Shown one piece after another: positions 26,501-32,241 of a stretch of DNA of 32,645 bases. The stretch spans positions 1 through 32,645 of the forward strand of contig JACRBX010000309.1 in assembly GCA_016219225.1 (NCBI GenBank). Reading direction: 5' to 3'. This DNA is from Deltaproteobacteria bacterium (lineage in GTDB: Bacteria > Desulfobacterota > RBG-13-43-22). Below the pieces are notes generated by a model that worked only from the letters and a program-made list of their open reading frames with translations, was not told where the DNA came from and ran no database searches. How positions within the stretch are numbered: the first letter of the stretch is position 1; the number at the start of each line of letters is the position of its first letter. Both the position numbers and the translations under genes were made by a program.

Positions 26501-27280
26501 TCAGGGGGTCGAAGCCAAAGAGGCCTTCTTCGAAATATCCTTGAGAACTTCCACCAGATTCTGCTCAAAGCCTGCTTCTTTTTCCTTCTGGAACGGAAAA
26601 GAAAATCCGATGGCGCCTTCGACCGCACCATTGCGGAAGACAGGCGCCGCCACCGCATTTCTCCCCAAAAACAATTCCTGCCGGTTGATGGCAAAGCCTT
26701 GCTTCCTGATCACCTCCAGGGATGCGGTCAGTCTGGCTGGATTGGTTTCGGTGTAGGGCGTGTGGGCGACCAAATCGCTGTCCCGGATGATTCTTTCCGC
26801 CTCAACGGAATCCATGAAAGCGAGGATAACCTTTCCCAAAGCGGTGCAACAGGCCGGCAGGCGGGAACCTACGGGAATATCCAGGTCGACGATGACATTG
26901 ATCTGAATCCGTTCCACATAGACAATTTCCGTTCCATCCAGAATCGCGCATTGGGCCCCGACGTTCAGCCGCCGGGACGCCTCCAGCAGGTGCGAAGAGA
27001 CCCGGGCTCTCAAATCCATATCACGCAGGAGGGAAAACCCCAGGGAGAGCACTTTGGGCGCGATCCGGAATTGCCTGGTGACCGGATCCCTGATGACATA
27101 TCCCAGGGATACGAGCGTCATCGCGTAGCGCGTTGCCGTCGCCGGCGAAATTCCGGTCAGCGAGGCCAATTCGACCAGGCCGAGCGGTCCCTTGTTTTTG
27201 GCGAGGGCCTCGAGAACCATGATGCCCCTCTCCAGGGAAGCAATAAAATAAGAATCTTCTTTTGGAGTGTTATCTTTCAT
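26501..27280 (-). CDS. IclR-family transcriptional regulator
   Basis: This 259-residue regulator has an N-terminal winged helix at about 12-75 (SLERGIMVLEALAK, LVELASLTGISPATATRYAMTL). A C-terminal IclR effector domain of GAF-like fold follows, with GTEIVYVER, PACCTALGKVILAF and the FLGRNAVAAPVF strand. It is the first gene of the catabolic operon and is followed by tctC. Two palindromic sites and a strong promoter lie directly upstream, so it very likely controls its own transcription and that of the whole gene set. The predicted promoter and site arrangement favour repression relieved by a ligand. No good ribosome binding site is visible; operator sequence occupies that place. Confidence 0.92.
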   Translation of the reverse strand: MKDNTPKEDSYFIASLERGIMVLEALAKNKGPLGLVELASLTGISPATATRYAMTLVSLGYVIRDPVTRQFRIAPKVLSLGFSLLRDMDLRARVSSHLLEASRRLNVGAQCAILDGTEIVYVERIQINVIVDLDIPVGSRLPACCTALGKVILAFMDSVEAERIIRDSDLVAHTPYTETNPARLTASLEVIRKQGFAINRQELFLGRNAVAAPVFRNGAVEGAIGFSFPFQKEKEAGFEQNLVEVLKDISKKASLASTP

Positions 27281-27283
27281 TCT

Positions 27284-27302
27284 ATTTTCACCAAGTGAAA
27301 AT
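27284..27302. promoter_or_regulatory. Operator 1 for the IclR regulator (predicted)
   Basis: ATTTTCAC-CAA-GTGAAAAT is a perfect 8+3+8 palindrome that ends four bases upstream of the iclR start codon. It lies downstream of the predicted transcription start, over the place where a ribosome binding site would be. Confidence 0.7.
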
Positions 27303-27303
27303 T

Positions 27304-27322
27304 ATTTTCACTATGCAAAAAT
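27304..27322. promoter_or_regulatory. Operator 2 for the IclR regulator (predicted)
   Basis: ATTTTCAC-TAT-GCAAAAAT repeats operator 1 with two mismatches in the right arm. It is centred exactly 20 bases away, i.e. on the same DNA face, and touches the predicted -10 element. Tandem sites suit tetrameric IclR proteins. Confidence 0.6.
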
Positions 27323-27347: not shown

Positions 27348-27485
27348 GAAATTTTTTTGCGTATAGCCAAAAATATTTGAAATTTGGAACCTCCTGTAAA
27401 CCATTTTCATGATTCGTGGTACTCTACGGGGACATGGGGGTTGATAAGTTCTCCTTCCTCCCTTTCAGTGGGGAGTTCATTTTCA

Positions 27486-27511
27486 CACTATAGTCTGTAG
27501 ACTTATGGTCT
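27486..27511 (+). promoter_or_regulatory. C-box, operator for the restriction-modification controller protein
   Basis: The sequence cACTATAGTC-TGTA-GACTTATGGTC has two GACT...AGTC-like half operators around a TGTA centre, the known layout of C-protein binding sites in type II systems. It lies 22 bases upstream of the controller start codon and contains the predicted -35 element. Confidence 0.75.
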
Positions 27512-27526
27512 TCAATTTCTGATAAT
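27498..27526 (+). promoter_or_regulatory. Promoter of the controller/endonuclease genes, probably giving a leaderless mRNA
   Basis: TAGACT (27498-27503) inside the C-box and GATAAT (27521-27526, within TGATAAT) are 17 bases apart. The start of transcription would fall at or next to the A of the ATG at 27533. No ribosome binding site is present, which agrees with leaderless translation, known for several C-protein genes. Confidence 0.6.
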
Positions 27527-27532
27527 CCCGAA

Positions 27533-27832
27533 ATGGAAAAAAATCTATCTAAAACTTTTAATCATGGTTCCATTGAAGAATTGTTCGGTAACATATTAAA
27601 ACAACTAAGAAATGATAAAAATTTATCACAAGAGTCGCTTGGGTTTGAGAGCGGCTACCACCGAACTTATATAAGCTTGCTTGAGCGCGGCAAGAAGAGC
27701 CCTTCATTAAAAACCATTTTTCAATTAGCAAAAGCTCTGGGCATAAAACCATCAGAAATCATGGACCGGCTCCAGGCGTTGTATCCTGATTATTCCAAGA
27801 AGAAGCATCCCAGGGGTAGGGTGAAAAAATGA
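27533..27832 (+). CDS. Controller (C) protein of the restriction-modification system, XRE-type HTH
   Basis: This small DNA-binding regulator has 99 residues, with one helix-turn-helix at about 18-75. The fold segments are LKQLRNDKNLSQESLGFES, then YHRTYISLLERGKKSPSLKTIFQLAKALGI, close to known C proteins (HRTYIS.LERG..SPSL). It has a basic C-terminal tail. A C-box and overlapping promoter lie directly upstream. The last four bases overlap the start of the endonuclease gene (ATGA), so both are made from one message. It should activate its own promoter at low level and repress at high level, delaying endonuclease expression until DNA is methylated. Base composition here is AT-richer than in the neighbouring operon. 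Confidence 0.88.
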   Translation: MEKNLSKTFNHGSIEELFGNILKQLRNDKNLSQESLGFESGYHRTYISLLERGKKSPSLKTIFQLAKALGIKPSEIMDRLQALYPDYSKKKHPRGRVKK

Positions 27833-28440
27833 AAATTGTTGAGACTCACGATATTTTTTCCGTGGGTCTATTCTCAAAATCAGAGGCATGGGATATCGCG
27901 TGTAAGCAGGTAAAAGATGCGATCCACGCCACTGATTGGCCACATGGATCGGGAAAGTTCACAATTTATCCTCAGAGTGGGAAAAAACGAGGAGAGGGGA
28001 ATGGCGTCGTTCCTATTAAAAAACCTTGTATCGAAAATCTCAAAAAATCAGGATGGCTAACGGAAAAGCTACCTCCCCTTGATAAGGGTGTTATTCACCC
28101 CGGTGATTTGGATGCACTTTTCATGTGTGACGCTGGATACATAGGATTTGAATGGGAAACAGGGAATATTTCTTCCAGTCATCGGGCGATCAATAAATTA
28201 CTTCTTACTATGCAGGTAGGAGGTCTTGTAGGCGGATTTCTCATTGTTCCCGGCAATAATCTGAAAACCTTTTTGACTGATCGCATAGGGAATATTGGAG
28301 AACTGAGGCCATACCTGCCCCTCTGGAGTTCAATCCCCATCAGAGAGGGTGTTTTGCGTATTGAGGTGGTAGAGTTTGACGCGGTAAGTTTGGATGTGCC
28401 CAAGATCCCGAAAGGCACGGACGGGAGAGCCCTGCAATAA
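27829..28440 (+). CDS. Type II restriction endonuclease, BamHI-like
   Basis: This 203-residue protein resembles the BamHI family of homodimeric type II endonucleases. The active-site region reads GDLDALF followed by GFEWETGN. D95 (or D93) and E108-x-E110 give a D...ExE arrangement, as in BamHI (D94, E111, E113), rather than the usual ExK. E69 in CIENLKKSGW could match the fourth acidic residue of BamHI. Other family-like segments are ATDWPHGSGKFTI, a NISSSHRAINKLLL helix, LTDRIGNIGELRPYLPLW, and a C-terminal DVPKIPKGTDGRA. Its product and specificity (GGATCC or a relative) are inferred, not shown. It is co-translated with the controller protein and ends 3 bases from the convergent methyltransferase stop. 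Confidence 0.82.
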   Translation: MKIVETHDIFSVGLFSKSEAWDIACKQVKDAIHATDWPHGSGKFTIYPQSGKKRGEGNGVVPIKKPCIENLKKSGWLTEKLPPLDKGVIHPGDLDALFMCDAGYIGFEWETGNISSSHRAINKLLLTMQVGGLVGGFLIVPGNNLKTFLTDRIGNIGELRPYLPLWSSIPIREGVLRIEVVEFDAVSLDVPKIPKGTDGRALQ

Positions 28441-28443
28441 TAG

Positions 28444-29811
28444 TTAACTCTTTTGAAGTATAATAATATTCTCTTTTCGCATAGTGTTTGAGATTCCCAT
28501 GATGGAGCGGCTCATCATTTTTATGAGGACAAAATTTAACTTTGAGCCCATTTCGATGAGGATCTCATGAAGCCCCGGCACTTCTTCTGGTGGCATTTTT
28601 AATGCCTTACTAAGCTGATTATCATTTGTCCCAATAATAATTGTACAAAACTTTCCGGAACGCAAAATACGTGAGCATTCCGAGAGTACCTTCTCCATGT
28701 CCTTTTTATAGAGCTCGAATTTCTCGGATAAATTTCTACCCCGGAGTCCTATCATTTTATCTCGAAGACTTTCGATTTCCACACCTAAAAAATTCAAATG
28801 AATGGCATCATTGTCGATGTAGTCAATGGCAAAGCTATAAGGCGGTGAAAAAATAATGCCATCAATGGATGAATCCTCAATGGGAATATCCCTTGCATCA
28901 GCTTCGATCACTCTGGAGGGGGCGAGATCTGCTTCAGTACCTGCCAAGACATTTTGGATTTTATTCGCAACGAAGATATATCTCTCGAGAATTGCCTTGA
29001 ACTGTTCGAGAGGATTCTTTCTTTGGCTTCTTTCTGAGTATCCGGCACTGTCTAAAAACGCTAAAAGAAGAAAATTATAAGTATCGGAGGTTTCTTTTTG
29101 TTGTTTCGTTAGTCCACTCCGGTTTTGGTTTGCAAGGTATTCCGCCGCCTGATCCATAACAGATACTGTATCACCGGATATTTTGTTATTGGGAGTTTTT
29201 GTCCCAATGTTTGGTTTCCCAATTTTATTCTTAAAATACTCAAAGACTTCCCGGTAATTATTTAAAGCCTTGTGTGCCCGGGTTAAGGACATGGTGATGG
29301 TGTCAATTTTTATCTGAGTCATTAATCTGCAAAAAGGGCTCGCGTCAATACCTATTGAATGTATCCCCATCAATGACGCTTCAACCAGCACAGTTCCAGA
29401 GCCCATCATAGGATCAAATACTGTATGGCCAGGTTTGATACCCATTATGTTAATAAGCCCCTTTACCATCTGAGGGTGAAATTTTCCTCGATAGGGGAAA
29501 AGGCCATGGGTTGCATAGCCCGTTCTGAAAATATTTTTTTCAAAGAAAGACTTTAGTCTGGAAGAGGAATGAGAAGGCAATCTTAAGGACTCACCAGTAC
29601 ACATCCTGAAATGTCTGGTATATGTATCACTTATACGAGCAAAATAGGCCCCGTTCTTGAGCAACTCCTCGACGGATAAAATCTGTTTTTCATAAAAGGC
29701 AAGTTCCAATTCATATAATTCATTAAGGTTCGGGACTAATTGATATTCAGGCGGGAAGAGGTTTTCGTTTAGGCTCCGGGAGAGAATATCAGCGATGTTT
29801 TGGTGTTTCAC
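28444..29811 (-). CDS. DNA methyltransferase with SPPY motif (N4-cytosine or N6-adenine type)
   Basis: This 455-residue amino-methyltransferase has an N-terminal extension of about 100 residues. YRGKFHPQ follows near 107-114, then the AdoMet-binding motif VFDPMMGSGT (131-140) with GIDAS after it. The catalytic motif FSPPYSF has SPPY at 322-325. Motif I precedes motif IV. SPPY is most often, though not only, seen in N4-cytosine enzymes, which would suit a BamHI-like partner. It is downstream of a second methyltransferase (14-base gap) and convergent with the endonuclease. It should protect host DNA from that endonuclease. Which of the two enzymes does so cannot be decided from sequence. Confidence 0.88.
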   Translation of the reverse strand: MKHQNIADILSRSLNENLFPPEYQLVPNLNELYELELAFYEKQILSVEELLKNGAYFARISDTYTRHFRMCTGESLRLPSHSSSRLKSFFEKNIFRTGYATHGLFPYRGKFHPQMVKGLINIMGIKPGHTVFDPMMGSGTVLVEASLMGIHSIGIDASPFCRLMTQIKIDTITMSLTRAHKALNNYREVFEYFKNKIGKPNIGTKTPNNKISGDTVSVMDQAAEYLANQNRSGLTKQQKETSDTYNFLLLAFLDSAGYSERSQRKNPLEQFKAILERYIFVANKIQNVLAGTEADLAPSRVIEADARDIPIEDSSIDGIIFSPPYSFAIDYIDNDAIHLNFLGVEIESLRDKMIGLRGRNLSEKFELYKKDMEKVLSECSRILRSGKFCTIIIGTNDNQLSKALKMPPEEVPGLHEILIEMGSKLNFVLIKMMSRSIMGISNTMRKENIIILQKS

Positions 29812-29825
29812 GTTCTGACCTCGGT

Positions 29826-30698
29826 TTATCTTTCTATATAATCCTCGGATTTGTGAGGGCTCAGGTCCTCTGTCTGCAGTCTCTCAATAATGACGTCACA
29901 GTTCTCAATCTCCATCCCAATCCAATGACGCTCCAGCCTTTCACACACATCATAGGTAGTACCGCTCCCACCAAAAGGGTCCAATACAATATCGCATACA
30001 TTCGTAGAAATTTGAACGACACGTTCAAGAAGTTTCGTGGATAATTGATTGGCTGATCTCTTGCGGCTTTTAAATTTCCAATGTCTAACCGGCGTGATGT
30101 CGTTCCAAACATCCGTTAGATTTACTCCTTTAGGATTCATCGCTCCCCTATGTCCGCCATAATCCTTAAGTTCTTTGCCACAATGCCTGCAGATTTCTAT
30201 TGGTGTTCGAATTTTTCTGAAAGTCTTTGGATTGCCTTTAGTGAAATAAAGCAGGCTATAATGAGAAGGGTAAAGCCTGCCCGGGATCGGCAATGTAAGT
30301 TTTATATTTACGGCAATCCAATGCCTAAACATCATTCCAATTTCGATCAGGTAATTACCCAAAATAATATTCCACCTCGGGAGGTTATAAACAAAAATCG
30401 CACCCCCGGGTCTAATAACGCGGAAACATTCATCCAACCAATTTTTGCACCAGCAAATATATTCATCGTCAGAACGATTATCGTTTACTTTGGCCCCATA
30501 TACTTTTGAAAGGTTAAAAGGGGGATCAGCAAATACAGTATCAATGGATTCACTTCGGATAAATGGGAGAAGTTTTTGGATATCTCCCCTATAAAGCACA
30601 CCCATTGTTGTTAAATATGCAATTTTATCCTCGATTCCTGGTTCAATTGCATTTCCCGGTATCCGGATTTTTTTATCGATTAAAGCTTGTTGAGTCAT
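29826..30698 (-). CDS. Beta-class DNA methyltransferase with DPPF motif
   Basis: This 290-residue methyltransferase has motif IV first (VFADPPFN, DPPF at 58-61) and the AdoMet motif last (VLDPFGGSGTT, about 238-248), the beta-class order. DPPF points to N6-adenine methylation, though N4-cytosine cannot be excluded. A small C-x2-C element (C170, C173 in ICRHCGKE) with nearby His may bind zinc in the target-recognition part. It starts the two-gene methyltransferase unit, with no clear ribosome binding site before the ATG, so a leaderless message is possible. Its presence next to a second methyltransferase suggests that two bases, or both strands of an asymmetric site, are protected. Confidence 0.88.
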   Translation of the reverse strand: MTQQALIDKKIRIPGNAIEPGIEDKIAYLTTMGVLYRGDIQKLLPFIRSESIDTVFADPPFNLSKVYGAKVNDNRSDDEYICWCKNWLDECFRVIRPGGAIFVYNLPRWNIILGNYLIEIGMMFRHWIAVNIKLTLPIPGRLYPSHYSLLYFTKGNPKTFRKIRTPIEICRHCGKELKDYGGHRGAMNPKGVNLTDVWNDITPVRHWKFKSRKRSANQLSTKLLERVVQISTNVCDIVLDPFGGSGTTYDVCERLERHWIGMEIENCDVIIERLQTEDLSPHKSEDYIER

Positions 30699-30802
30699 AT
30701 TAGGTTAAGATGTTGATAACATATGAGATAAATTGATTAATTTTTAATTACAATGGAGGGAATATAAGATAGACATCTTTGTGTGTCAATAACATATGTT
30801 GA

Positions 30803-31188: not shown

Positions 31189-31278
31189 ATAATGACAATT
31201 AGTTGTTTTTATTATTAAGATTGCTTATAATCCTTAATACATAACTTCGGATACCATGCCCACTTATTAACAAAAAGA

Positions 31279-31992
31279 GGGAATGGCTATTTTGATTCCG
31301 CCCAAGCCTATGCCGGGAGCGAAACCTATTACGGTCTGGTTTGGCCTCGACGTTCCACTGACCGGACCAGGATCTTTCAGACCAGCAAATCGGCCAGGAG
31401 GACCAAAAAAGAGGCCCTTCTGAAATTAGACCATACCCTCCTCAACATGGGGATAGATTACCTCGACCTTTGGCAGATCCATGATGTAAGGACCGAAGAA
31501 GATCTTCAGACTATTGCCGGGCCAGGTGGGGCCTTAGAAGCGTTTGTTGAAGCCAAAGTTAAAGAAAAATCCCGTTTTATCGGTCTGACTGGTCATCATG
31601 ACCCGGAAATTTTAACCAGGGGCGTAAAAACCTGGCCGATAGATTCAGTTCTGATCCCGGTTAATCCTGTTGAAGGAATCCTGGGTGGGTTTCTGACCGC
31701 CACCCTGCCTGCGGCCCATGAAAAAGGGGCGGCGGTTATCGGGATGAAAGTCTTGGGGGCCGCTCATTATTTAATCCCATAGTCCGGCATAACCCCCGAG
31801 TTGCTCATTCGATTTGCCCTTTCCCAGCCCATCACCTCAGCCATTTTGGGGTGCTCCACTCCCGAAGAGGTAAAAACCCTGGCCCGGACCGGCCGAAATT
31901 TCAAACCCCTATCTCCTGAAGAACAACAACAGATCCTCCATCTTTTTTCGCCTTATGCCGGGCGGCTGGCCTTTTATCAAGGCGTGATCTGA
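31279..31992 (+). pseudogene. Aldo/keto reductase pseudogene with in-frame TAG and lost N-terminus
   Basis: One continuous frame reads through aldo/keto reductase sequence: FDSAQAYAGSE (catalytic Asp and Tyr), then TSKSARRTKKEAL (Lys), MGIDYLDLWQIHDV (His), and a barrel continuing to LGAAHYLIP. A single TAG at 31780-31782 interrupts it. The same frame then resumes with GITPELLIRFALSQPITSAILGCSTPEEVKTLAR and ends at 31992. The first barrel strand and glycine-rich start (about 40 residues) are missing and no start codon fits. A nonsense mutation (probably GAG to TAG) in an already truncated gene is the best explanation. Confidence 0.8.
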
Positions 31993-32241
31993 AGCCGGCA
32001 CCTTGGACATTTGATTGGAGTCGGGCCGGGAGTTGTCTTTGTTCGCTTTTGAAGATCGGCTTACACCCGATATAAGATGAAGATCCCGTTCCTGTATTCC
32101 CAGTAACCGAGGCTGCCGTGAACTGCGTGGCTTGAAAATTCAGGCCGATCCCGGCATCGGAGTATTTCAGCGTGCCGGTGACAATGGCCACCCCGGCAAA
32201 TGCCTTTCCCGGATGAGTTCATTAACTTTCCGGGGATCAAT
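31993..32241. other. Region without an assignable gene
   Basis: On the - strand a frame without clear start reads FAGVAIVTGTLKYSDAG and onward (about 32206-32000) and then runs into the aldo/keto reductase remnant. I do not recognise it. It may be decayed sequence downstream of the repeat protein. No terminator is evident. Confidence 0.35.

Follow-up and report, generated by a model that had tools for sequence, protein, structure and literature searches.

A predicted PvuII-type C/R promoter-operator in a BamHI/OkrAI-family restriction-modification cassette of a deltaproteobacterium

Controller (C) proteins were first found in two systems, of which BamHI is one (PMC4824078). In the PvuII system, the proximal operator O_R overlaps the -35 element (PMC3695507) and transcription that depends on C yields a leaderless mRNA (PMC2997769); leaderless transcripts have been described as common in both the PvuII and EcoRV families of C proteins (PMC4824078). 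Here we describe an element in a 32,645-nt stretch of DNA from a Deltaproteobacteria bacterium (contig JACRBX010000309.1; the whole stretch is referred to below as the window) that very probably acts, in the manner of its PvuII and Esp1396I counterparts, as the C/R promoter-operator of a type II restriction-modification (RM) cassette; this cassette belongs to the BamHI/OkrAI family and was probably gained by horizontal transfer.

A C.PvuII-type controller is a small Cro/C1-type helix-turn-helix protein related to known C proteins, and the C gene of the window (27533–27832, + strand) encodes one: a 99-aa protein (Pfam HTH_3, E = 3e-16) whose closest PDB matches are C.AhdI (E = 2e-11), C.BclI (E = 2e-10) and C.Esp1396I (E = 8e-6). 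In an alignment with C.Esp1396I, recognition helix residues R35, T36 and Y37 are kept as R44, T45 and Y46, and R46 and S52 are replaced by K55 and T61. Among the C.Esp1396I residues tested, T36 and R46 are those whose loss hurt binding most, with T36A abolishing binding and R46A weakening it ~30-fold (PMC4041747). The SQE patch that was tested in C.Csp231I (PMC4824078) is present at S32–E34.

The 24-base box upstream of C (27487–27510, + strand) consists of ACTATAGTC (27487–27495) and GACTTATGGTC (27500–27510) on either side of a TGTA spacer (27496–27499); C.PvuII-type boxes are characterized in the literature by a GT at their center (PMC4824078). A sequence-only reading had described the two flanking elements as half-sites that match known C-boxes. 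The sequence match stands, but the term half-site does not, as each element is better read as an operator in its own right, accommodating one C dimer: (i) a distal operator, O_L, which contains the 8-bp perfect palindrome ACTATAGT and is the predicted activating site and (ii) a proximal operator, O_R, which overlaps the -35 element and is the predicted repressing site. O_R has one mismatch to GACTNNNAGTC. Checked against the definition of the C.PvuII-type C-box, O_L is a shorter form (CACTATAGTC, 10 bases).

For comparison, nine loci with a BamHI-family endonuclease (R) gene and a C gene were gathered from genomes and plasmids; besides the window, they include loci from a Syntrophaceae bacterium (L001), Candidatus Aminicenantes (L002), Planctomycetota (L003), a Desulfocapsa plasmid (L011) and a Geobacillus plasmid (L012). 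A C-box recognizable by eye lies upstream of C in all nine, and also in one unrelated C-containing locus. O_L is nearly invariant across the nine loci (ACYATAGTC or ACTTATAGTC) and O_R is looser, reading GACTTATAGTG in L001 and GATTTATAGTC in L009. Between the window and L001, 22 of the 24 box positions and 19 of the 22 positions from box to ATG are identical (41/46 from the box up to the ATG). The five bases to the left of the box are also identical, and the next 95 leftward match at 25 positions (26%). The conservation is a footprint that extends from the box into the coding sequence, and the box-to-ATG distance is exactly 22 nt in the window, L001 and L009.

The putative C promoter combines TAGACT (27498–27503, + strand, 4/6 consensus matches) as the likely -35 element with GATAAT (27521–27526, + strand, 5/6 matches) as the -10 element, separated by a 17-nt spacer. 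Six bases (CCCGAA) lie between the -10 and the ATG at 27533–27535, which is the first possible start codon of the C frame and coincides with the predicted +1. The sequence-only reading had placed the -35 inside the box, the -10 17 bases later and the predicted start on this ATG, and the positions agree on all three points; the overlap of TAGACT with O_R is that of a C.PvuII-type C-box. The hexamers alone (9/12) occur at chance level, with 13 sites found versus 9.5 ± 2.9 expected, and this counts against our best explanation. A comparable promoter placed with its start on an ATG is rarer than the hexamers alone, being found at 3 of the 1008 ATGs in the window; such a placement is seen in ~0.8% of random sequences of local base composition. 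The -10 is GATAAT in L001 and CATAAT in L009, with its distance from the ATG unchanged.

No anti-Shine-Dalgarno pairing was found before C in the window, L001, L009, L002 or L003 (five of the nine loci), and pairing before R is strong. With a predicted +1 at 27533, no Shine-Dalgarno and a box-to-ATG spacing that is kept in L001 and L009, the layout predicts a leaderless C mRNA, as in PvuII, where the layout is the same. The best surviving alternative accepts the box as a genuine C operator and has the working transcript, with a short leader, begin upstream, for example from the promoter-like match TTCACA-16-TATGGT (27482–27509, 9/12). PvuII has an extra weak promoter that does not depend on C and gives a 26-nt leader (PMC2997769), and relatives L005 and L011 have leaders. 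However, the window has no Shine-Dalgarno before C to serve a leader, and the placement of the -10 six bases before the ATG is kept in L001 and L009. We therefore consider an upstream working start rather unlikely, although it may coexist with the predicted start as a weak starter promoter.

The least ordinary point is that the box is retained among relatives whose C mRNAs would not all be leaderless. Two of the nine loci (L005 and L011) combine the same box with a Shine-Dalgarno and a longer leader before C, and a leaderless start is therefore not obligatory for the family; this typing leaves out L007 and L012. It is possible, and we suggest it only tentatively, that the start of C has switched type within one RM family, being leaderless in the window, L001, L009 and, probably, L002 and L003 but led by a Shine-Dalgarno in L005 and L011, with no accompanying change in the C-box. 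In that case, leaderless translation would be a layer of the timing circuit that can be separated from the rest and tuned.

Two DNA methyltransferase genes are convergent with C-R. M2 (28444–29811, - strand) encodes a PF01555 protein with an SPPY motif and is conserved in L001, L029, L030, L031, L032 and L033; M1 (29826–30698, - strand) encodes an MboIIA-like protein with a DPPF motif (PF01555, E = 1e-40; M.MboIIA 1g60, E = 3e-23). Within the fetched stretches, BamHI-family endonucleases are accompanied by both M1 and M2 in the window, L001, L029 and L033, by M1 only in L002, L011 and L012 and by M2 only in L030, L031 and L032. In two loci without a recognizable C gene, M2 is immediately preceded by a gene of the MerR/HTH_17 type (L030:3185–3382, + strand; L032:4474–4776, - strand), perhaps a replacement regulator. 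A predicted M1–M2 promoter (30761–30789, - strand) reads TTGACA-17-TATATT, with 11/12 matches, and is without a C operator. The M promoter of L001 has the same hexamer layout and the same 62-nt leader, its length counted by hand. A repeat, TGTYRATAACATATG, is present just before the M1 start (30711–30725) and over the M1 -35 (30784–30798), and is not apparent in L001.

Could C also directly repress the methyltransferase genes, as at O_M of Esp1396I? The convergent gene order is the same as in Esp1396I (PMC4041747), and L002 has a single C-operator-like GACTATAGTA (L002:7606–7615) ~92 nt upstream of its M start, which resembles O_M. Esp1396I-type control of M would call for a C operator at the M promoter. 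In the window, however, no site within two mismatches of GACTATAGTC is found near the M1 promoter (30698–30800); the only other GACTATAGTC-like site in the cassette is inside M2. Direct repression of the methyltransferases by C is accordingly improbable here.

C proteins can act differently from the scheme that we favor, as C.Csp231I and C.Kpn2I do, and we count this against our best explanation. In the arrangement of Csp231I, C would be mainly a repressor or limiter and R would be driven from a separate promoter, in keeping with the C-independent R expression seen in that system (PMC4824078). The R gene of the window (27829–28440, + strand) encodes a BamHI/OkrAI-family endonuclease (PF02923, E = 2e-42) with OkrAI as its closest PDB match (3odh, E = 1e-43) and homology to BamHI (1bam, E = 4e-22). 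It follows C directly, its start at 27829 overlapping the C stop (27830–27832) by 4 nt (ATGA). This overlap leaves no intergenic space for a separate promoter, no internal + strand promoter stands out within C and the box is of the PvuII type rather than the CTAAG-n5-CTTAG type, so that a limiter role with independently driven R appears very unlikely. From its homology to BamHI, R is predicted to cut GGATCC, which occurs seven times in the window and not at all in the cassette.

The full box, ACTATAGTC-TGTA-GACTTATGGTC, has a single match in the window at up to three mismatches, and none in 100 dinucleotide shuffles. A scan of 395 genomes from the same phylum, allowing up to two mismatches, gave three matches to the C-box pattern, all of them in front of a C-type gene (the window, L009 in genome G384 and L028 in genome G071), and a reversed control pattern has no match in the same genomes. 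The letters of the box, used as a literature query, returned unrelated papers only. A chance palindrome, rejected on the shuffles and the control pattern, or an operator of another regulator such as the IclR-family gene that is the left neighbor, has a negligible likelihood, as the box accompanies C genes across many neighborhoods and the sequence to its left is not conserved. A separate palindrome, TTTTCACcaaGTGAAAA (27290–27320), lies just upstream of that divergent IclR-family gene (26501–27280, - strand) and is likely to be the operator of its product.

The GC content of the cassette (40%, versus 55% in the left flank) suggests acquisition by transfer, and the cassette has probably been acquired horizontally. 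No relatives were found on viral or phage contigs, and a search for an empty insertion site found no close relative of the neighboring IclR gene in 20 related genomes. To the right of the cassette, positions 31260–32000 resemble, by eye, a broken aldo/keto-reductase-like gene; positions 31447–31779 have no Pfam match.

Under the C/R promoter-operator model, synthesis of the methyltransferases would begin immediately, driven by a strong promoter of their own, while the C-R promoter, with its poor -35, would have low activity at first. Once enough C protein has built up, a dimer bound at O_L would recruit RNA polymerase, and positive feedback would raise C and R together. As the C concentration increases further, a second dimer would fill O_R, cover the -35 and repress. 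The activated transcript would start at ATG 27533 or within a base or two of it, and the C mRNA would therefore be leaderless; translation of R would rely on a Shine-Dalgarno within the last part of C. The most likely purpose is that the cell's own DNA is protected before the cutter is made. The sequence-only reading had proposed an autoregulated timing switch, and the protein family, the gene order, the box, the overlap of O_R with the -35, the lack of a Shine-Dalgarno and the conservation from box to ATG are all consistent with such a layout.

This BamHI-family cassette, probably a horizontal acquisition, thus appears to carry an intact PvuII-type controller circuit, and no new principle is required to explain it. 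The nine loci vary naturally in whether C is leaderless or led, in the orientation of the methyltransferase (divergent or convergent) and in the presence of a site at M, and they could be used to test the share of each layer in the delay. Like BamHI/OkrAI systems, the window has a BamHI-family endonuclease, but it differs from them in its two convergent M genes; in the Geobacillus and Desulfocapsa plasmid relatives, unlike the window, M is divergent from C-R. The window shares with Esp1396I a C-R operon convergent with M, the O_L and O_R pair and conserved DNA-contact residues (PMC4041747), and differs in having two methyltransferases and no O_M found at the M promoter. It differs from PvuII in its endonuclease family, in the orientation of M (divergent in PvuII, convergent here) and in the weak upstream start, for which there is only a candidate here. 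Like PvuII, however, it has two operators with O_R over the -35, a C-dependent transcript that is leaderless (predicted here) and a C gene upstream of and overlapping R (PMC2997769, PMC3695507). The mechanism is already known from other bacteria, and the window is a well-formed new example.
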